This document shows positions 40,682-53,948 of a DNA stretch of 64,000 nt, in pieces. The notes beneath the pieces are model-generated. The model had not been told where the DNA came from. It saw only the letters and a program-made list of their open reading frames with translations, and ran no database searches. The translations under genes and the position numbers were made by a program. Each line of letters starts with the position of its first letter. Positions within the stretch are counted from its first letter, which is position 1. The stretch comes from Rhodococcus gordoniae (GTDB lineage Bacteria > Actinomycetota > Actinomycetes > Mycobacteriales > Mycobacteriaceae), in the NCBI RefSeq assembly GCF_001646655.1, contig NZ_LPZN01000051.1, forward strand, positions 1 through 64,000. The letters run 5' to 3'.

Positions 40682-41155
40682 GTGCCGATACCCGATTTCG
40701 TCGTCCAGCTCCGCTCACACGTAGGAACCGCTCCCCTGTGGCTGCCGGGGGTGAGCGCGATCGTCACGGACGAGCACGGTCGCGTCCTGCTCACCCGCCG
40801 CGCCGACAACGGGATGTGGGCGGTGGTCTCCGGCATCCTCGAACCCGGCGAGGAACCGGCGGTCGCCGCGGTCCGCGAGGTACTCGAGGAGACGGGTGTC
40901 ACCGCCGAGATCGTCCGGTTGACGAGCGTCGACGTCACGGCGCCCATCACCTATCCCAACGGCGACGTCGCGCAGTACCTCGACGTGTGCTTCCTGCTCC
41001 GCGCGACCGGCGGGGACGCACGTGTCGCCGACGACGAGAACCTCGAGGTGGCGTGGTTCGCGCCGGACGCGCTCCCCGAACCGCTCACCGAGACATCACG
41101 CCTGCGGCTCGGGAAGGCGCTCGCCGGTCGTGCGGAGGCCTGGTTCCGTCAGTAG
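40682..41155 (+). CDS. NUDIX hydrolase, MutT-like
   Basis: 157 residues with a canonical Nudix box (GILEPGEEPAVAAVREVLEE, then TGV). It hydrolyses a nucleoside diphosphate linked to another moiety; the exact substrate is not set by sequence. The GTG start follows a TATACA element. The last 7 bases overlap tail-to-tail with the arabinosyltransferase stop. Confidence 0.92.
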   Translation: MPIPDFVVQLRSHVGTAPLWLPGVSAIVTDEHGRVLLTRRADNGMWAVVSGILEPGEEPAVAAVREVLEETGVTAEIVRLTSVDVTAPITYPNGDVAQYLDVCFLLRATGGDARVADDENLEVAWFAPDALPEPLTETSRLRLGKALAGRAEAWFRQ

Positions 41156-44100
41156 GCGGTGTTGATCGGACCCGGGCTCCACAGCCCGCTGCGCGTGACG
41201 GTGGTGGTGTCGAGTTCCGCGGTCTCCGTGGCCGAGTCGATCGGTGTGTACTGTTCGATCGCTCCCCAGTCGCGGTCCCAGTCGTGATCGAGATACGACG
41301 GGATCGTGCGCGCCCGCAGCAACTGGTCGGTCCAGCCGAGCGGACCACCACCGTGGTGGTCCTGCCACAGATCGGTGGAGATGGCACCGACCCGGTCCGG
41401 CAGGATGCGGTACTCGGGAATCTCGGCGATGCCGTTGCGGTGCACCATCTGACGCTGGCACGGGAAGTTGAGACCGACCGCCCAGTCCAGCAGGACCGGT
41501 GTGTCGCTCCCGACGACCTGCTGCAGCGTCCGGGTCTGCGGCACGCGCGGCGGGGTGAACGCGAGCCACTGCTCCGGCGCCAGATCGTTGTCCGAGGCGA
41601 CGATCCGCACCGCGTCGGCCTCGCCGGGCAGCGTCTCCATCGGGACCCGCAGATTCCTCCACGACGGCGCCGGACCGATGTCGATCGGCAACGCCCGTCC
41701 CAGCGCGATGACACCGCCGTCGGCGCCGGTGGTTCCGTATTCGAGTTCGAGTCGCTGGCCGTAGGTCTCGGTGCCGTCGGCGTCGACCGAGAAGATCCGT
41801 CCGGCCGCAGCGATGGTGACGAGATCCCCGCGGGAGCCGTTCGCGTCCGGCTCGGGCAGCCGGAACCAGGCGCTCGTGACGTCGCCGAGGGTCGACCCGT
41901 GGCTACCCAGCACGGGGGTGGTCGCCGGGTCGAGACCGAACGGCATTGCGACGGTGCTGCCGTTGATCCCGACGCTGCCGGTGCCGCCGCCGGTGCCCCC
42001 GGTGCCCCCCGTCGAGCTCTGATCGTTGTTCGTGTCGACGGTGTTGGCGGTACCGGCAGACGCCGAGTCGTCGTCCGGGGTGAGATCGAGCGCGACCCCG
42101 CCCGGAGTGAACCCGTCCCCTCCTCCGGCGTCGAGGGAGGTCGCCGCGTCGGCGCCGATGGGAGTGAGTACCGAGGCGTTCGGATCCGTTTCGAGCAGCA
42201 CGTCGTTCGCCAGGGCACACGAGTTGCCGGTGAGCGTGTCGAGATTGGATCGTGCCACCGAATAACCCGGATACTGCGCGATCGCACCCTTGGCCAGTGA
42301 CAGCACCTCGAACACCACCATCGCGGCGGCGGCGACGGTCAACGGCGGCACCGCCCACCAGCGCGCCGGAGAGTCGGTGCGCGTCGAGGCGACGGGATGG
42401 ATGTGCCACCACGCGGCGAGCAGCAAGGCCGCGACCGTCACCGCGAAGAAGACGGTGGAGAAACCGAATCCGGCGACCGACGGCGGCTTGTCCCACCACG
42501 GCACCCCGTAGCTCGAGACGTACCACCAGCCGTTGGGGCCGATGAACGACATGGTCACCACGAACGACACCGCCGCGGCGAACAACGCCCGGTTGCGTCG
42601 CGAGCGCAGCACAGCGGGACCGGTGGCCACGGCGGCGAGCATCGCCACCGCAGCCGCGAGACCGGCGTAGATACCGAAGTGGTGGGTCCACTTCGTCGGC
42701 GCGAACATCATCAGCACCAGCGCACCGAGGGTGATGCCGACGATGCGCCGGGAGGGACCCTGCGCGGTGCCCGGGATGTGCCCACCGCGGCGCAGCATGG
42801 CGACGACCGCCACCGCCAGGCACAGCACCAGAGTGAAGACCGCGAACCTGCGGGCCAGAGAGCCGTCCACGGTGATCTGCAGTAGGTACTGGTAGCGCAG
42901 GTACTCCTGGAACCACGGCACGTTCGGACCGACCTCGTGCGCGTGCTGCATTTCCAGCACTGCCGCGAGGGTCTGGTCGGCGAAGACCGGTACCAGGATC
43001 ACCAGTCCGGCCGCGACCAGCGGAGCGAGAACCGGCAGCCATCCCAGGCTGCGCGCGCGTCGATGGAGGATGCGGGCGATCGGGCGGGCACCGGCGATCA
43101 GCGCGGCGAAGCAGATGATGCCCGACGGTCCGGCGGTCACGGTGAGCGCAGCGACGAGGATCGCCGCCGCCGCCGGCAGCAGACGCCGGGTGGCGATCGC
43201 GCGTTCGAGCAAGCACCAGGTCAGCACGACACCGGTCGCGACGATCGGCTCCGGACGCAATCCGTTGTTCAGCGGCAGCCAGAACGCCAGGAACACCAGG
43301 GCCCCGGTCCACAACGGGAGCCGGTTGCGGCGTAGCGCCACGCCGAGACGCGGAGCGACCTCGCGGCTGAGCACCCACCAGCACAGGATCCCGGCGGTCA
43401 GGGCCGGTAGCCGCATCCAGAGGCTCGCCGTCGAGATCTGGGTCATCGCGGCGAGGACGTCGTAGAAGGGTGTGCCGAACGGTGCTTCGGGCACACCGAA
43501 CCACCGGAAGTAGTTCGCCATGTACCCGGCCTCCCCCGCAGCGCGGGCCATTCCGAGCTGGTAACCGTCGTCGGCGGTGTTCGCCCCGATGACGTGCCAG
43601 AGAAGCAGGGTTCCGACGACCAGCGCGTCGATGCGGGTGAACGACCACCACGACGCCGGCAACAGGCGGCGGTGGCGGCGGCCGTCGGTGCGGTCGAGCC
43701 GGGCCAGCGTCCACAAGGCCAGTGCTGTGGCCACCACCGCGACGATCATCGCGACGATCTTCAGCATCGTCGGAGACGTCGTGAACCGGGTGTCGACGGT
43801 CGCGGTGACCGAGACGCCGTCGAGCGCGGGACCGGGCAGGTCGGTGAAGACGCCGACCAGCTGAGGTCGCAGGTCGCGGTCGACGGTCCGCTCCCCCGCC
43901 GCGGCCGACCCGGTGATCGTGGCGACGGTACGTTCCGAGTTCGAGGACAGGGTGACCGCACAGTCCCCGGACAGCTCGTCCACCGGTGCCGCCGCAAGCA
44001 TCGTGTTGCGGGAGATCACCTCGAACATCGCCGGTCCGACGTCACCGGCAGACCGGACCCGGACGATCAGCCCGTAGCGCTCACGATCGGGAGCTCCTTC

Positions 44101-44421
44101 CGGGAGGGTGGAGAACACGGTGCCGCCGTCCGGCAGCGCTTCGCGCACGGACCGGCACTCGATCGTGGCGTCGAGATCGACCGGCGCGTAGGACACCAGC
44201 GGAGCCGAGATACCGGTCTTGCTCTCACTCTGCGGCCATTCGAGGGTTGCGGTGGTCTGCGTCACGGGCAAGAGCGGTATCGCGATCGATGCGACGATCC
44301 CCACCACGGCGGCGAGTACCGCCCACAGCCGGGTCCGCTGCTCGACCACCCGTCTGCCGGACTGCGAGCGTTCCGATGTCACCGGCCGAGGCGAGCCCGA
44401 CGCTTCTCTTGTCTCGGTCAC
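41149..44421 (-). CDS. emb: Arabinosyltransferase, EmbA/B/C family (GT53)
   Basis: 1090 residues. After a membrane segment near residue 30 comes the Emb N-terminal domain, then the GT-C motif NTADDGYQLGMARAAGEAGY with the catalytic aspartates and a long multi-pass region. A C-terminal extracellular carbohydrate-binding domain follows (SCALANDVLLETDPNASVL, WSPGPINTAY). It adds arabinofuranose from decaprenyl-phosphoarabinose to arabinogalactan or lipoarabinomannan. A Gly/Thr/Ser-rich insertion (near 41970-42080) interrupts the C-terminal domain. GTG start with a TATAGC element 10 bases upstream. Confidence 0.92.
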   Translation of the reverse strand: MTETREASGSPRPVTSERSQSGRRVVEQRTRLWAVLAAVVGIVASIAIPLLPVTQTTATLEWPQSESKTGISAPLVSYAPVDLDATIECRSVREALPDGGTVFSTLPEGAPDRERYGLIVRVRSAGDVGPAMFEVISRNTMLAAAPVDELSGDCAVTLSSNSERTVATITGSAAAGERTVDRDLRPQLVGVFTDLPGPALDGVSVTATVDTRFTTSPTMLKIVAMIVAVVATALALWTLARLDRTDGRRHRRLLPASWWSFTRIDALVVGTLLLWHVIGANTADDGYQLGMARAAGEAGYMANYFRWFGVPEAPFGTPFYDVLAAMTQISTASLWMRLPALTAGILCWWVLSREVAPRLGVALRRNRLPLWTGALVFLAFWLPLNNGLRPEPIVATGVVLTWCLLERAIATRRLLPAAAAILVAALTVTAGPSGIICFAALIAGARPIARILHRRARSLGWLPVLAPLVAAGLVILVPVFADQTLAAVLEMQHAHEVGPNVPWFQEYLRYQYLLQITVDGSLARRFAVFTLVLCLAVAVVAMLRRGGHIPGTAQGPSRRIVGITLGALVLMMFAPTKWTHHFGIYAGLAAAVAMLAAVATGPAVLRSRRNRALFAAAVSFVVTMSFIGPNGWWYVSSYGVPWWDKPPSVAGFGFSTVFFAVTVAALLLAAWWHIHPVASTRTDSPARWWAVPPLTVAAAAMVVFEVLSLAKGAIAQYPGYSVARSNLDTLTGNSCALANDVLLETDPNASVLTPIGADAATSLDAGGGDGFTPGGVALDLTPDDDSASAGTANTVDTNNDQSSTGGTGGTGGGTGSVGINGSTVAMPFGLDPATTPVLGSHGSTLGDVTSAWFRLPEPDANGSRGDLVTIAAAGRIFSVDADGTETYGQRLELEYGTTGADGGVIALGRALPIDIGPAPSWRNLRVPMETLPGEADAVRIVASDNDLAPEQWLAFTPPRVPQTRTLQQVVGSDTPVLLDWAVGLNFPCQRQMVHRNGIAEIPEYRILPDRVGAISTDLWQDHHGGGPLGWTDQLLRARTIPSYLDHDWDRDWGAIEQYTPIDSATETAELDTTTVTRSGLWSPGPINTAY

Positions 44422-44431
44422 GAGGAGCGAT

Positions 44432-44437
44432 GCTATA
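44432..44437 (-). promoter_or_regulatory. -10-like element (TATAGC) of the arabinosyltransferase gene
   Basis: On the minus strand TATAGC ends 10 bases before the GTG at 44421 and no purine-rich ribosome site precedes the start, so translation may be leaderless. Confidence 0.4.
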
Positions 44438-44465
44438 GGTGAGCGGCCGGGCCGCGAAAAACACG

Positions 44466-44507
44466 CGATCCCGTACACGGGCGCTCCGGCGCCGGTGTAC
44501 GGGATCG
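44466..44507 (-). terminator. Long hairpin terminator after nrdF
   Basis: CGATCCCGTACAC and GTGTACGGGATCG pair perfectly for 13 bp. After one mismatch the stem continues for several more GC pairs. It lies 19 bases beyond the nrdF stop. Confidence 0.8.
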
Positions 44508-48994: not shown

Positions 48995-49969
48995 GTGTTC
49001 CCGGTTCGCGCGATGGCCGCCACCCTCCTGGCACTGTCCCTGTGCACCGCCTGCGACCCGCGCCGCACATGCGAACCGATCGCCGCCCCGCTCGACGAGA
49101 CGAGCACCGCGTGCCCCCGCTTCGGCATCAGCACCCCGGGTGGCCCGGTGGCCGTCGACGAGTACCGCGCGGTCGCCGAGGCCGTCGGCACGGCGCCGGG
49201 CGCGGTGTTGTGGTTCGTCGACTTCCCTTCCCCTCCCCCCATCGGCGCCCTCGACATCGTGCGGGCCTCGGGCGCGGACCCGATCGTCACGTGGGAACCC
49301 TGGATACGCCGCGACCACGACTACGACCGGACGTCCGTGACGATGAGCGACATCGCCGCCGGCGTCCACGACGACCACCTCTACCGCTGGGCCGACGAGC
49401 TCGCCGCCTGGGGTGGGAAGGTCTATCTGCGATTCGCCCACGAACCGAACGGGGACTGGTACCCCTGGAGCCCTGCGGCAGGGACCCCGCCGGAGACGTA
49501 TGTCGCCGCGTGGCGGCATGTGCACGATCTGTTCGCATCGAAGAACGTCGAGAACGTGCGCTGGATCTGGACGGTCAACGTCCCGCACGAGGGCAGCAGT
49601 CCCATCGCCCCCCTGTATCCGGGTGACGAGTACGTCGATGTCGTCGGAGTGGACGGCTACAACTGGGGCACCACCCGGCCGTGGAGTCGGTGGCAGTCCC
49701 CCGAGGAATTGTTCGGACCGACGTTGGACGAACTCGGCCGGCTCGCTCCGGGGCGTCCCGTCGCTGTCACGGAGGTCGCGAGCGCGGAGGCCGGTGGATC
49801 GAAGCCGGACTGGATCCGGGATCTGGTGGGTTACTTGGACAGTCACCCGGCGGTCACAACATTCGTGTGGTTCCATCACAACAAAGAAACCGATTGGCGC
49901 TTGACCAGCACGCCCGAGTCCGCGGGGGCGCTGAGCGACGCTCTGCACAGGAGACACATCGCACGATGA
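48995..49969 (+). CDS. Secreted GH26-family glycoside hydrolase (probable lipoprotein)
   Basis: 324 residues. A signal-peptide-like start (MFPVRAMAATLLALSLCTAC) has an atypical lipobox ending in Cys 20. GH26 motifs: LRFAHEPNGDWYPW with the acid/base glutamate, VDVVGVDGYNWG, and AVTEVAS with the likely nucleophile. GH26 enzymes cut beta-mannan or mixed beta-glucan. The stop overlaps the phosphatase ATG by 4 bases. It probably edits the polymer made by the GT2 synthase in the same operon. Confidence 0.85.
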   Translation: MFPVRAMAATLLALSLCTACDPRRTCEPIAAPLDETSTACPRFGISTPGGPVAVDEYRAVAEAVGTAPGAVLWFVDFPSPPPIGALDIVRASGADPIVTWEPWIRRDHDYDRTSVTMSDIAAGVHDDHLYRWADELAAWGGKVYLRFAHEPNGDWYPWSPAAGTPPETYVAAWRHVHDLFASKNVENVRWIWTVNVPHEGSSPIAPLYPGDEYVDVVGVDGYNWGTTRPWSRWQSPEELFGPTLDELGRLAPGRPVAVTEVASAEAGGSKPDWIRDLVGYLDSHPAVTTFVWFHHNKETDWRLTSTPESAGALSDALHRRHIAR

Positions 49970-51207
49970 CAGCCGAGGCGTCGCTCCTCCCCGAACATCT
50001 CGAGAACGAACGCATGCGTGACGTGGAGCTGCTCGAACTGCTCGACACCCCCCACGAAGAACGGTTCGACAAGATCACCCGCATCGCGTGCCGCGTGTTC
50101 GGTGTCCCGATGGCTTCGCTCTCGCTGATGGATCGCGATCGGCAGTGGTTCAAATCGATCCTCGGACTGGAGCTCTCCGACGTACCGCGCGAGAGGACGG
50201 TGTGCCGCACCACGATCGCCCGGGCCTACGCGCAACCCGAGGATCCCGTACTCGTCCTCCCGGATGCCGCCTCCGATCCCGCTTTCGCGGACATCCCCGG
50301 TATCGGCGGAAAGGGGGGCATCCGGTTCTATGCGGGCTATCCCCTGTACGGACCCAACGGTCACCCCGTGGGCACCTTCTGCATCTACGACACCGAGGAG
50401 CGGAACCTCGACGCGGATCAACTCGACACCTTCGCCGAGCTGGCCGAGTGGGCCCAACGTGAACTCGATCGCGCCGACGAACTCGACCGCGCCGCCGAGA
50501 TCCAGAACCAGCTCCTCCCCCGGCCGCTCCCGGACCTTCCCGGTTACGAGATGGCCACGATCTGCCTGCCCGCCTTCATGGTGGGCGGTGACTTCTACGA
50601 CCACTACCGGCTCCGCGACGGGATCGTGATCACCGTCGCCGACGTCATGGGCAAGGGCCTGGGCGCCGCCATCCTGTCGTCGGCCGTGCGCTCCTCGATG
50701 CGGGGGGTCGCGCGGGTGCTCGAGCGTTTCGGGACTCGTCCGGTCGGCGTCCTCGACACCGGGATGACTCTGACCGTCGGCGCCGAACACCTCGCCGACG
50801 ACTTCGAGCACACCGGGACGTTCGTCACCTCCTTCCTCGCCGCGCTCGAGTTCTCCACGGGAGACATCGATTATGCCGATGCCGGGCACGGGCTGGCCGC
50901 GATCCGCCGCGCCGACGGTACGGTCGAGCCACTGACGAGCGGTGGTGGTCCTCCGCTGGGGATCTTTTCCGCGACCACCTGGAGGTCCGAGGCCGCGCGG
51001 CTCGATGCGGGCGACATGCTCGTGATCTGCTCCGACGGCCTGCTCGACCTGCTCGACGAACAGAGCGACCCGGCGGCTCTGTGCCGTTTCGTCGCAGACC
51101 GGGCCGACCCGGAAGAACTGGTGGCCGCCGCGCGTGCGCTGGCCGAGAGCAATCCGCCGCTCGACGACGTCACGGTGGTCGCGCTACGCCGGGAGACGGC
51201 GTCGTGA
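49966..51207 (+). CDS. GAF-domain PP2C phosphatase (RsbU/SpoIIE type)
   Basis: 413 residues. A GAF sensor covers about residues 20-160 (RFDKITRIACRVFGVPMASL, GGIRFYAGYPLYGPNGHPVG). A SpoIIE/PP2C domain follows with manganese-site aspartates in MVGGDFYDHYRL, TVADVMGKGLGAAIL, YADAGHGLAAI and VICSDGLLDLL. It should dephosphorylate the STAS antagonist encoded downstream. ATGA overlap with GH26 and GTGA overlap with GT2. GGAG lies 14 bases before the ATG. Confidence 0.92.
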   Translation: MTAEASLLPEHLENERMRDVELLELLDTPHEERFDKITRIACRVFGVPMASLSLMDRDRQWFKSILGLELSDVPRERTVCRTTIARAYAQPEDPVLVLPDAASDPAFADIPGIGGKGGIRFYAGYPLYGPNGHPVGTFCIYDTEERNLDADQLDTFAELAEWAQRELDRADELDRAAEIQNQLLPRPLPDLPGYEMATICLPAFMVGGDFYDHYRLRDGIVITVADVMGKGLGAAILSSAVRSSMRGVARVLERFGTRPVGVLDTGMTLTVGAEHLADDFEHTGTFVTSFLAALEFSTGDIDYADAGHGLAAIRRADGTVEPLTSGGGPPLGIFSATTWRSEAARLDAGDMLVICSDGLLDLLDEQSDPAALCRFVADRADPEELVAAARALAESNPPLDDVTVVALRRETAS

Positions 51208-53159
51208 AGGCCGTCACGAAGGAGGGCTACCCGTCCCCCTTCCTGCGCGTCCTCATCGTCCTCACGGTCATCGTCGGGTTGAACTACATCGTCTGGCGCT
51301 GGCTGTTCTCCGTGAACTGGGATGCGTGGTGGATCGCGGTCCCGCTCGTTCTCGCCGAGACGTACAGCCTGATCGATTCGCTGCTGTTCGCGTTGACGAT
51401 GTGGCGGTTGAGGAGACGTCCCGAGCCGCCCATCGCACCCGCCGGCATGACGGTCGACGTCTTCATCACCACCTACAACGAACCGGTCGATCTGGTGTTG
51501 CGCACGGCAGCAGCCGCGCAGCGCATCCGCTATCCGCACCGCACGTGGATCCTCGACGACGGAGCCCGGCCCGAACTCGCCGCGGCCGCAGCCGAACTCG
51601 GCGTCGACTACATGACGCGGTCGGCGAGCTGGACGAACAAGCCCCGTCACGCCAAGGCCGGCAATCTCATCAACGCCCTGCTGCACTCCGACGGCGAGTT
51701 CCTTCTCATCCTCGACGCCGACCAGATTCCCGAACCCGAGATCCTCGACCGCACACTCGGATACTTCACCGACGACAGCATGGCACTGGTCCAGACGCCG
51801 CAGTACTTCACCAATGTGCCCGACTCCGATCCGCTCGGCAGTCAGGCGCCGTTGTTCTACGGGCCGATCCAGCAGGGCAAGGACGGCTGGAACGCGGCCT
51901 TCTTCTGCGGGTCCAATGCGATCCTGCGACGTGAAGCACTCATGCAGCTCGGCATCGCCGGCTATGTCCAAGCCGTCGAGGACGGTGTGGAACGCACCCT
52001 GCGCACCGCGGGAAGGGTGGTCGACCGGGCACGCCGGAAAGTGCCCGCCGACCAGCCGGACGTGGCCGCGGCACTCGACTCGGTGCGCCGTGCCGTGCGC
52101 ACGGCACGCGGCGAACTCCGGACCGGCGCGGCACTCGCCGACGTCACCTTCCGTTTCCAGCAGACGGTCGACGCCGCCGCGCGCAGCATCGTCGACGCCG
52201 ACTTCGGCAGCATCCGGGCCGATCTCGAGGAGATCGCAGCGCTCGACGCGCACGGCACCGATGCGCTCACGATCGACGACACCGTCCTCGAACGCCTCGC
52301 CGACCGCGAGTGGTCACCGCTCGGCGCGCTCGAATCGATCCGCGCGATGATCCGCGCCGTCGATGTCGACCGTGCAGAGGAGGCCGAGCCGATGCTCGCG
52401 TTGGCCACGATCTCCGTGACCGAGGACATGGCCACCTCGATGCGCCTGCACGGCGCCGGCTGGAAGTCCGTCTACCACCACGAGATCCTCGCCTACGGGC
52501 TCGCCCCGGAGGATCCGAAGACGATGGTCACCCAGCGACTCCGGTGGGCACAGGGCACGATCCAGGTGATGCTGCGGGAGAACCCGCTCGTTCAGAAGGG
52601 CATGACCGTACCCCAGCGCCTGATGTACTGGTCGACGATGTGGAGTTATCTTTCCGGCTTCGCAGCGCTCGCCTATTTCGCGGCGCCGGTGATCTATCTC
52701 GTCTTCGGGATCCTGCCGGTCGAGGCGTTCAGTCTCGACTTCTTCTCGCGACTGGTCCCGTTCCTCATCCTGAGTCAGTTGCTGTTCTTCATCGTGGGCC
52801 GCGGGACTCCGACCTGGCGGGGCCAGCAGTACAGCCTCGCGCTCTTCCCGGTGTGGATCAGGGCGTGCTGGACGGCCTTCCTCAACGTGTACTTCGACAA
52901 GCCGCTGGACTTCGCGGTCACGCCGAAGACACGCCAAGGGGGCGAAGGTGTCCCGTGGTATCTGTTCCGGCAGCAGCTGCTCGTCATGGCGCTGCTGGTG
53001 GTGGCGGCGGTCATCGGCACCGTGCGGCTGTTCCTCGGCGACATCTCGGTGCTGGGAGTCACCGCGAACCTCGTCTGGGTCGTGTTCGACCTGTTCATTC
53101 TCTCGGTGGTGATCCAGGCAGCTCGCTACCGTGGACCCGAAAGCGAAGGAGATCGATGA
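51204..53159 (+). CDS. Membrane cellulose-synthase-like glycosyltransferase (GT2) with large insertion
   Basis: 651 residues. Two N-terminal membrane segments are followed by a cytosolic GT2 domain with D118-D119-G120, D171-A172-D173, T406-E407-D408 and Q444-R-L-R-W448, the signature of processive beta-glycan synthases. About four to five C-terminal membrane segments follow. There is no PilZ domain, so c-di-GMP control of the BcsA type is not expected. An extra helical segment lies at about residues 255-400, between GSNAILRREALMQLG and the TED motif. Coupled by 4-base overlaps to the phosphatase and the STAS gene. Confidence 0.9.
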   Translation: MKAVTKEGYPSPFLRVLIVLTVIVGLNYIVWRWLFSVNWDAWWIAVPLVLAETYSLIDSLLFALTMWRLRRRPEPPIAPAGMTVDVFITTYNEPVDLVLRTAAAAQRIRYPHRTWILDDGARPELAAAAAELGVDYMTRSASWTNKPRHAKAGNLINALLHSDGEFLLILDADQIPEPEILDRTLGYFTDDSMALVQTPQYFTNVPDSDPLGSQAPLFYGPIQQGKDGWNAAFFCGSNAILRREALMQLGIAGYVQAVEDGVERTLRTAGRVVDRARRKVPADQPDVAAALDSVRRAVRTARGELRTGAALADVTFRFQQTVDAAARSIVDADFGSIRADLEEIAALDAHGTDALTIDDTVLERLADREWSPLGALESIRAMIRAVDVDRAEEAEPMLALATISVTEDMATSMRLHGAGWKSVYHHEILAYGLAPEDPKTMVTQRLRWAQGTIQVMLRENPLVQKGMTVPQRLMYWSTMWSYLSGFAALAYFAAPVIYLVFGILPVEAFSLDFFSRLVPFLILSQLLFFIVGRGTPTWRGQQYSLALFPVWIRACWTAFLNVYFDKPLDFAVTPKTRQGGEGVPWYLFRQQLLVMALLVVAAVIGTVRLFLGDISVLGVTANLVWVVFDLFILSVVIQAARYRGPESEGDR

Positions 53160-53491
53160 GCCACTACGAAACCCGCCAGGTGGGAACGAGCACGGTCGTG
53201 CAACCCACCGGTCGCCTGAACATGGTTGCGGCACCGCGCCTGCGCGAGCAGTTGCGCGATCTCGTCGAGAACGGATCCCACCGGCTCGTGGTCGACCTGA
53301 GCACAACCGATTTCATCGACTCCTCCGGGCTCGGCGCACTCGTCTCCGGGTTGAAGGCGGCCCGTCAGGCCGGCGGCGACCTGCGGATCGCCGCACCGAC
53401 CGCCCAGGTACAGAGCGTGCTCGCGCTCACCCGGCTCGACCGGGTGCTGACGACACACGATTCCGCGGATGTGGCCTTCGATGGCGACTGA
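53156..53491 (+). CDS. STAS-domain anti-sigma-factor antagonist
   Basis: 111 residues, complete single STAS domain. The phosphorylatable serine sits in TDFIDSSGLGALVSG. It is expected to be phosphorylated by the adjacent kinase and dephosphorylated by the GAF-PP2C protein. The ATG overlaps the GT2 stop (ATGA). Confidence 0.93.
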   Translation: MSHYETRQVGTSTVVQPTGRLNMVAAPRLREQLRDLVENGSHRLVVDLSTTDFIDSSGLGALVSGLKAARQAGGDLRIAAPTAQVQSVLALTRLDRVLTTHDSADVAFDGD

Positions 53492-53948
53492 CCGGTCACC
53501 CGAAGCGCAACCGGCCGAGGGCCCTTCGGGGCGGTGGGAGCTGTCCGCCACGACGAGTGAAGGCACCCTCGACCGGATCATGGATCTGGTCGCCGAGATG
53601 TTCGCCGCCGAGGAGCTCGACGATTCGGATCGCATGCAGTTCGAGATCGCGGTCGCCGAGATCGGCGCGAACATCATCGAGCATGCCGGCCGGGGAGACG
53701 CGGTCTCGGTGGCGCTGACCCTGGAACTCCATCCGGATCGTCTCGAGGCCGTGTTCGTCGACGACGGCGCCCCGGCCCGGGTGGATCTGCGTTCGGTCGA
53801 GCTCCCCGACGCACTCGCCGAACGCGGCCGAGGGCTCGCCATCGCCCTCGCCGCGCTCGACGAACTCCGGTACCGCCGTCAGGCGGGCATCAATCGCTGG
53901 ACACTCGTCTGTTATCGATCCGAGGGGTCAGGGCAAGCCGACCAGTAG
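53481..53948 (+). CDS. RsbW-type serine kinase / anti-sigma factor
   Basis: 155 residues with a GHKL ATPase fold: N-box in FEIAVAEIGANIIEHA, G1 in FVDDGAPARVD, G2 in AERGRGLAIAL. It should phosphorylate the STAS protein and hold a partner. No sigma factor gene is nearby. The start is inside the STAS gene (11-base overlap). Its 3' end overlaps the molybdoenzyme gene tail by 21 bases. Confidence 0.9.
   Translation: MATDRSPEAQPAEGPSGRWELSATTSEGTLDRIMDLVAEMFAAEELDDSDRMQFEIAVAEIGANIIEHAGRGDAVSVALTLELHPDRLEAVFVDDGAPARVDLRSVELPDALAERGRGLAIALAALDELRYRRQAGINRWTLVCYRSEGSGQADQ

Follow-up and report, generated by a model that had tools for sequence, protein, structure and literature searches.

The stretch of DNA considered here, called the window in the following, comprises the first 64 kb (positions 1 to 64,000) of contig NZ_LPZN01000051.1 from Rhodococcus gordoniae. 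On its forward strand, at 48995..53948, lie five overlapping genes in which a cellulose-synthase-like glycosyltransferase of family GT2 is accompanied by the phosphatase, the STAS antagonist and the kinase of a partner-switching module. An earlier reading of the sequence, referred to as the original prediction, proposed that this switch acts on the synthase rather than on a sigma factor. The comparison of loci and genomes presented below suggests that the switch controls the cellulose-synthase-like enzyme directly.

The Operon

The first gene (48995..49969) encodes a GH26 glycoside hydrolase of 324 amino acids, a predicted lipoprotein, whose PF02156 score of 49.2 bits exceeds the Pfam gathering score of 20.2; the LCTAC sequence near its N-terminus is lipobox-like. 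The second gene (49966..51207) encodes a GAF plus SpoIIE/PP2C phosphatase of 413 amino acids (PF01590, 44.4 bits; PF07228, 111.8 bits), in which the PP2C motifs GGDFYD, ADVMGKG, DAGH, SDG and DDVT can be read and which is presumed to be the sensor end of the switch. Next comes the GT2 of 651 amino acids (51204..53159; PF03552/PF00535; TIGR03030 CelA), with intact catalytic motifs (LDDG, LDAD, VTED and QRLRW). The fourth gene (53156..53491) encodes a STAS protein of 111 amino acids that scores 75.3 bits, above the cut-off (PF01740/TIGR00377). Its DSSG motif contains Ser56 (codon 53321..53323), which corresponds to Ser58 of SpoIIAA and is therefore expected to be phosphorylated. The last gene (53481..53948) encodes an RsbW-type serine kinase of 155 amino acids (HATPase_c_2, PF13581) with an EIGAN box, and the closest solved structure to it is that of RsbW (6m36).

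The overlaps from gene to gene are exactly 4, 4, 4 and 11 bases, and both the open reading frames and the domains of the five-gene block are as originally described. The claim that a complete phosphatase/antagonist/kinase set surrounds the synthase holds as well, since the domain scans place the PP2C, STAS and HATPase kinase families in one operon, and the phosphorylatable serine of the STAS protein and the catalytic motifs of kinase and phosphatase are all present.

Conservation of the Gene Order

The gene order was compared across 193 actinobacterial GT2 loci, which are reduced to 140 when the GT2 sequences are collapsed at 97% identity. A species-genome scan gave 80 loci of 417 candidates, and more were obtained from the order, the phylum and two families, so that the sample is biased toward close relatives of the query. 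One locus with a weak GT2 match (L002) was left out throughout. GT2, STAS and kinase genes are adjacent in this order on a single strand at 181 of the 193 loci (128 of the 140 non-redundant ones), and at 169 of them (116 of 140) the PP2C gene also stands directly upstream. A start/stop overlap of 4 bases is found at the end of the GT2 gene in 148 of 185 loci and at the end of the PP2C gene in 151 of 170. Such conservation of the order is unlikely to be due to chance. A confident GH26 (hidden Markov model score >150) is present at 43/140 non-redundant loci; this figure is too low, since many of the loci do not extend far enough to include the gene. The system is scattered among soil bacteria, with environmental mycobacteria, Rhodococcus, Gordonia, Nocardioides and Arthrobacter among those that have it.

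The exceptions are of four kinds. At three loci (L007, L070, L088) the module is nearby in another arrangement, with no PP2C seen at L007; at five (L057, L073, L081, L085, L209) no module is present at the locus; three (L212–L214) belong to a kinase-less, Gordonia-like lineage; and one (L216) has a broken GT2. No real natural fusion of GT2 with STAS or kinase was found in 229 loci. A double match at L216 was considered as a fusion and rejected, the STAS protein being in the same open frame as part of the broken GT2. At this locus (genome G1042) the GT2 is split over two frames, and the PP2C, STAS and kinase genes are still open. Kinase and PP2C share one open frame at L217:6361-8856 and L008:3527-4891, a natural fusion of opposing enzymes.

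Co-occurrence of Kinase and Synthase

The GT2 is patchily distributed. It is present in 8 of the 249 genomes sampled from the order, in 2 of the 396 sampled from the phylum, in 59 of 294 from a second family (f21) and in 48 of 401 from the window's own family. With a profile built from 28 GT2-linked kinases, the kinase is found in 45 own-family genomes, all of them among the 48 that have the GT2, and in none of the 353 that lack it. The Fisher test gives p of about 2e-56 for this overlap, a value that ignores shared ancestry. In family f21 the profile matches in 44 of 216 genomes, of which 41 are GT2-positive and three are not, and 18 further GT2-positive genomes all have a kinase gene next to that of the GT2 in the stretches retrieved. 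The weakest matches to the kinase family score 102 bits, and the best of the other kinases observed 48 bits.

Two of the three f21 genomes with kinase and no GT2 carry a stand-alone PP2C-STAS-kinase module (L260 in G674, L262 in G731), and the third has the kinase only (L261 in G823). A second cluster with matches to PP2C (on the other strand), STAS and HATPase_c_2, distant from the window family, lies near 24891-25671 of contig C18 in the genome of the window itself (G000, L108).

The three own-family genomes with GT2 and without this kinase are three species of one genus (L212–L214). They show no match to the kinase family genome-wide at E<=1e-5, and the 9.5-kb stretches retrieved contain no PP2C gene. 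The catalytic motifs of their GT2 are intact, and a segment inserted in the enzyme, described in the next section, is 110–111 residues long in them as against 151–163 elsewhere. The STAS gene still adjoins the GT2 gene, in tandem in two of the three loci, and its product has TPSG or RPSG at the position occupied by DSSG or DSSA in 185 of 188 STAS sequences. Purifying selection acts on this STAS protein (dN/dS 0.34 and 0.23) and, more strongly, on the GT2 (0.08 and 0.17). A STAS protein that is kept without kinase and phosphorylation site would need another partner, and the GT2 is its neighbour. The pattern points to a relation between STAS and GT2 that may need no kinase.

Comparison with BcsA and the Insertion

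The GT2 of the window shares with the cellulose synthase BcsA the GT2 fold and the core motifs DDG, DxD, TED and QxxRW. It differs from it in several respects, however. Namely, a Pfam scan gives no PilZ match (PF07238) at E<=0.01, no BcsB gene is seen at the window locus, the TIGR03030 CelA score of 339.7 bits does not reach the cut-off of 699.1, and a partner switch stands alongside. In addition, a phmmer alignment to BcsA (7lby) covers residues 15-250 and 400-637 and leaves residues 251-401 extra. This insertion of 151 residues (51954..52406, forward strand), absent from BcsA, lies between the FFCGS..RREALMQLG segment and TISVTED, that is, just before the TED motif. Plant cellulose synthases have a class-specific region at a similar place.

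The insertion is 151–163 residues long in 189 of the 193 actinobacterial loci and has a conserved WSPLGA-type motif. It has no Pfam match above cut-off, and weak matches to flagellin coiled coils in the PDB (best E 0.016) were judged to be due to chance. At two loci the catalytic motifs of the GT2 are degenerate (four of four in L215, three of four in L217), and yet the full switch and a full-length insertion are kept. In a regression of insertion identity to the window on core identity over 186 loci, fitted without L212–L217, the insertions of these two lie 5.2 and 4.9 standard deviations, respectively, above the fit. The two proteins (genomes G947 and G1225) are possible pseudo-enzyme paralogs, which might have a regulatory or scaffold role.

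We now turn to other phyla. A tree of the synthases separates BcsA, proteobacterial and actinobacterial-plus-Nostoc groups, each with 100% support. Among 17 plasmid records with a GT2 of the proteobacterial clade, 12 places in 11 records were inspected, and SpoIIE, STAS and ATP-binding kinase genes are near the related GT2 at 11 of them, often together with OpgC and DUF3131. The exception is Paracoccus liaowanqingii (L116), with a SpoIIE gene, a GAF gene and no STAS match. At one locus on a Nostoc plasmid, the genes for GH26, GT2, STAS, SpoIIE and kinase lie within 10 kb, not in one operon. At BcsA-type loci, none of eight matches the three switch profiles (L120, L122, L123, L124, L264–L267; two of them with only 3 kb flanks). 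At the insertion site there are about 45–50 extra residues in the proteobacterial GT2s, about 30 in a Nostoc GT2 and none in four BcsA-type enzymes.

A Sphingobium sp. RAC03 plasmid carries two copies of a GT2-SPOR locus (L113 and L268) with an inverted trio, bcsS and GH16, the GT2 gene of one copy being preceded by a PilZ gene, and a plasmid of Salmonella enterica typed as conjugative (L118) has GT2, DUF3131 and OpgC with a partner-switch cluster. An OpgC-type acyltransferase also follows the kinase at Nocardioides and Clavibacter loci, in parallel with the proteobacterial ones; in two cases (L045:8529-11288 and L049:8271-11333) it is C-terminal to a weakly GH26-like region.

Proposed Mechanism and Alternatives

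On the basis of these results the synthase itself is the most likely output of the switch, because the gene order is conserved, kinase and GT2 co-occur, and kinase, phosphorylation site and insertion length are lost in a correlated manner. In the mechanism that we propose, Ser56 of the STAS protein would be dephosphorylated by the GAF-PP2C phosphatase and phosphorylated again by the RsbW-type kinase. The unphosphorylated STAS protein would then engage the membrane-bound GT2 at its cytosolic face, most likely helped in docking by the insertion just before TED, and would set the activity of the enzyme, more likely by switching it on. The switch would fill here the role that PilZ and cyclic diguanylate (c-di-GMP) have for BcsA. 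We estimate the probability of this reading, with the synthase and not a sigma factor as output, a STAS–GT2 contact and a probable involvement of the insertion, to be roughly 0.58. For the original prediction this means that a switch serving the synthase and not a sigma factor is well supported by gene order, co-occurrence and lineage loss, and that direct post-translational control of the GT2 is what we infer from them.

Several observations weigh against the proposal. The profile used to find the kinase was derived from kinases that are themselves linked to a GT2, and three genomes (G674, G731, G823) have the kinase without a GT2. The correlated loss is one event in one lineage, where the shortened GT2 keeps its STAS neighbour despite the partial loss of the insertion, the lost part of which may serve the kinase. 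The long insertion is found only in Actinomycetota and cannot be a universal dock, since the Nostoc and proteobacterial GT2s are without the long version. The five loci with a full insertion and no local switch are all in genomes with a kinase (113–170 bits) and a STAS protein (145–155 bits) elsewhere. Three of these cases (L057, L081, L209) are clean, their distant module having no GT2 in the fetched flanks; in the other two (L073, L085) the switch adjoins a second GT2, so that they say little.

The coevolution tests, made without L216, L150 and L077, do not help either. Mean-field direct coupling analysis (139 sequences, effective number 68) is powerless, as the kinase–STAS control pair is not clearly enriched. 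Coevolution between insertion and STAS was rejected as support, the partial mirror-tree value falling from 0.364 to 0.128 (bootstrap 0.027–0.234) with rate-matched core and PP2C controls, where PP2C scores <200 were left out and the core gives 0.10. Independent pairs gave 0.09, 0.35 or 0.21 for insertion and STAS, depending on the transformation.

The alternative that survives best is that the kinase, not the STAS protein, binds the insertion and holds the synthase off, and that unphosphorylated STAS draws the kinase away, as with RsbW and sigma factors. This would match the classical order of such a switch. The co-occurrence is equally strong for kinase and STAS, and in L212–L214 the loss of the kinase accompanies that of about 40 insertion residues, so that contact through the kinase is conceivable. 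However, it would leave unexplained why, in the absence of the kinase, a STAS protein without phosphorylation site is retained next to the GT2, and the mean column identity over the same 28 rows is higher for STAS (62%) than for the kinase (43%). We consider this scenario to have a minor, although real, chance of being correct. The STAS protein is the likeliest contact with the GT2, because it survives without kinase and phosphorylation site.

Alternatively, the kinase could be a conventional anti-sigma factor that works in trans, its target being a sigma factor from another place in the genome that drives transcription of this operon or of other genes. RsbW-type kinases often act as anti-sigma factors, and SpoIIE/SpoIIAA/SpoIIAB and RsbU/RsbV/RsbW, which have the same three domain families and motifs as the window proteins, act on sigma factors encoded nearby. 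No such factor is found at the window locus, though. As the original prediction stated, the operon encodes none, and with three sigma factors of the same genome as queries there are no matches in the 64-kb window at E<=1e-3. Sigma-factor open reading frames occur at only 3 of the 193 loci (L207 and L210, SigA/B-like and on the opposite strand; L062, near the locus edge), and none is in operon strand and order; 70 loci extend less than 1.6 kb on one side. A scan of the window for the SigF-type site (GTTT-N14-18-GGGTA) returns no match, and one for the sigma-70 consensus returns no promoters. The genome does encode a SigF-type factor, but this factor is already directly preceded by a HATPase_c_2 gene of its own (C51:221800 and 222249). 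The three genomes with module or kinase and without GT2 would fit control in trans, whereas the absence of the kinase family from all 353 GT2-less own-family genomes speaks against it, and a dead or sigma-only switch leaves the insertion data unexplained. Sigma control in trans is therefore unlikely.

Least probable of all is that the switch controls another envelope part (the GH26 enzyme, an OpgC-type acyltransferase or the assembly of an export complex) with the GT2 a mere neighbour, for although GH26 or OpgC genes turn up repeatedly at these loci, their presence varies while the GT2 is constant, GH26 as a predicted exported lipoprotein cannot meet a cytosolic kinase, and it is the GT2 insertion that changes together with the switch.

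As to the polymer, the GH26 gene is the single source of the idea that it could be a beta-mannan or a mixed beta-glucan. The operon is flanked upstream by ribonucleotide reductase and glutaredoxin genes on the opposite strand and downstream by convergent molybdopterin dehydrogenase genes. Beside the ribonucleotide reductase genes there is a gene for an Emb-type arabinosyltransferase (41149-44478, minus strand).

Relation to Known Systems

SiaABCD of Pseudomonas aeruginosa likewise has a PP2C phosphatase, a kinase and a STAS-like protein in one operon with the target enzyme, and SiaC is reported to bind the diguanylate cyclase SiaD and to activate it (PMC7647112). It differs in that the target is a diguanylate cyclase and the phosphorylation site a threonine, whereas the neighbour here is a membrane polysaccharide synthase. 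In SypE/SypA of Vibrio fischeri the STAS protein, with its phosphorylation site at Ser56, is the downstream output below transcription in polysaccharide-dependent biofilm formation (PMC10120452, PMC8256260). Kinase and phosphatase are, however, fused in the single protein SypE. HmpU/HmpV/HmpW of Nostoc punctiforme ties PP2C, STAS and kinase to polysaccharide and motility, and its STAS protein is active when dephosphorylated (PMC8256260). The targets of SypA and HmpV, STAS proteins outside sigma control, are stated in these papers to be unknown (PMC8256260, PMC10120452).

With SiaC–SiaD and SypA as precedents, a sigma-independent STAS output is plausible here. A SypA-like STAS protein, being the output and acting without the kinase, might be compatible with the three genomes of one genus that lack the kinase and keep, next to the GT2, a STAS protein without phosphorylation site. 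Since SiaC–SiaD is already an example of a partner switch that controls an enzyme directly, a synthase-linked switch would be a variant and not a new kind. In the open-licence literature searched, as far as its accessible portions go, no report of the gene set in Actinomycetota was found.

Conclusion

The operon, the co-occurrence and the correlated loss tie the switch to one enzyme and make this enzyme its concrete candidate target. It is possible, although somewhat less likely than not, that the enzyme represents a general class of beta-glycan synthases in Actinomycetota, Proteobacteria and perhaps Cyanobacteriota that is switched post-translationally by a dedicated SpoIIE-STAS-RsbW module, as a counterpart of PilZ/c-di-GMP on BcsA, with regulatory inserts of varied size before TED. 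Such a class, if it exists, would hint at what the targets of SypA and HmpV look like. If the proposed control is correct, there would be, next to c-di-GMP, a second way in which polysaccharide synthases are directly controlled.

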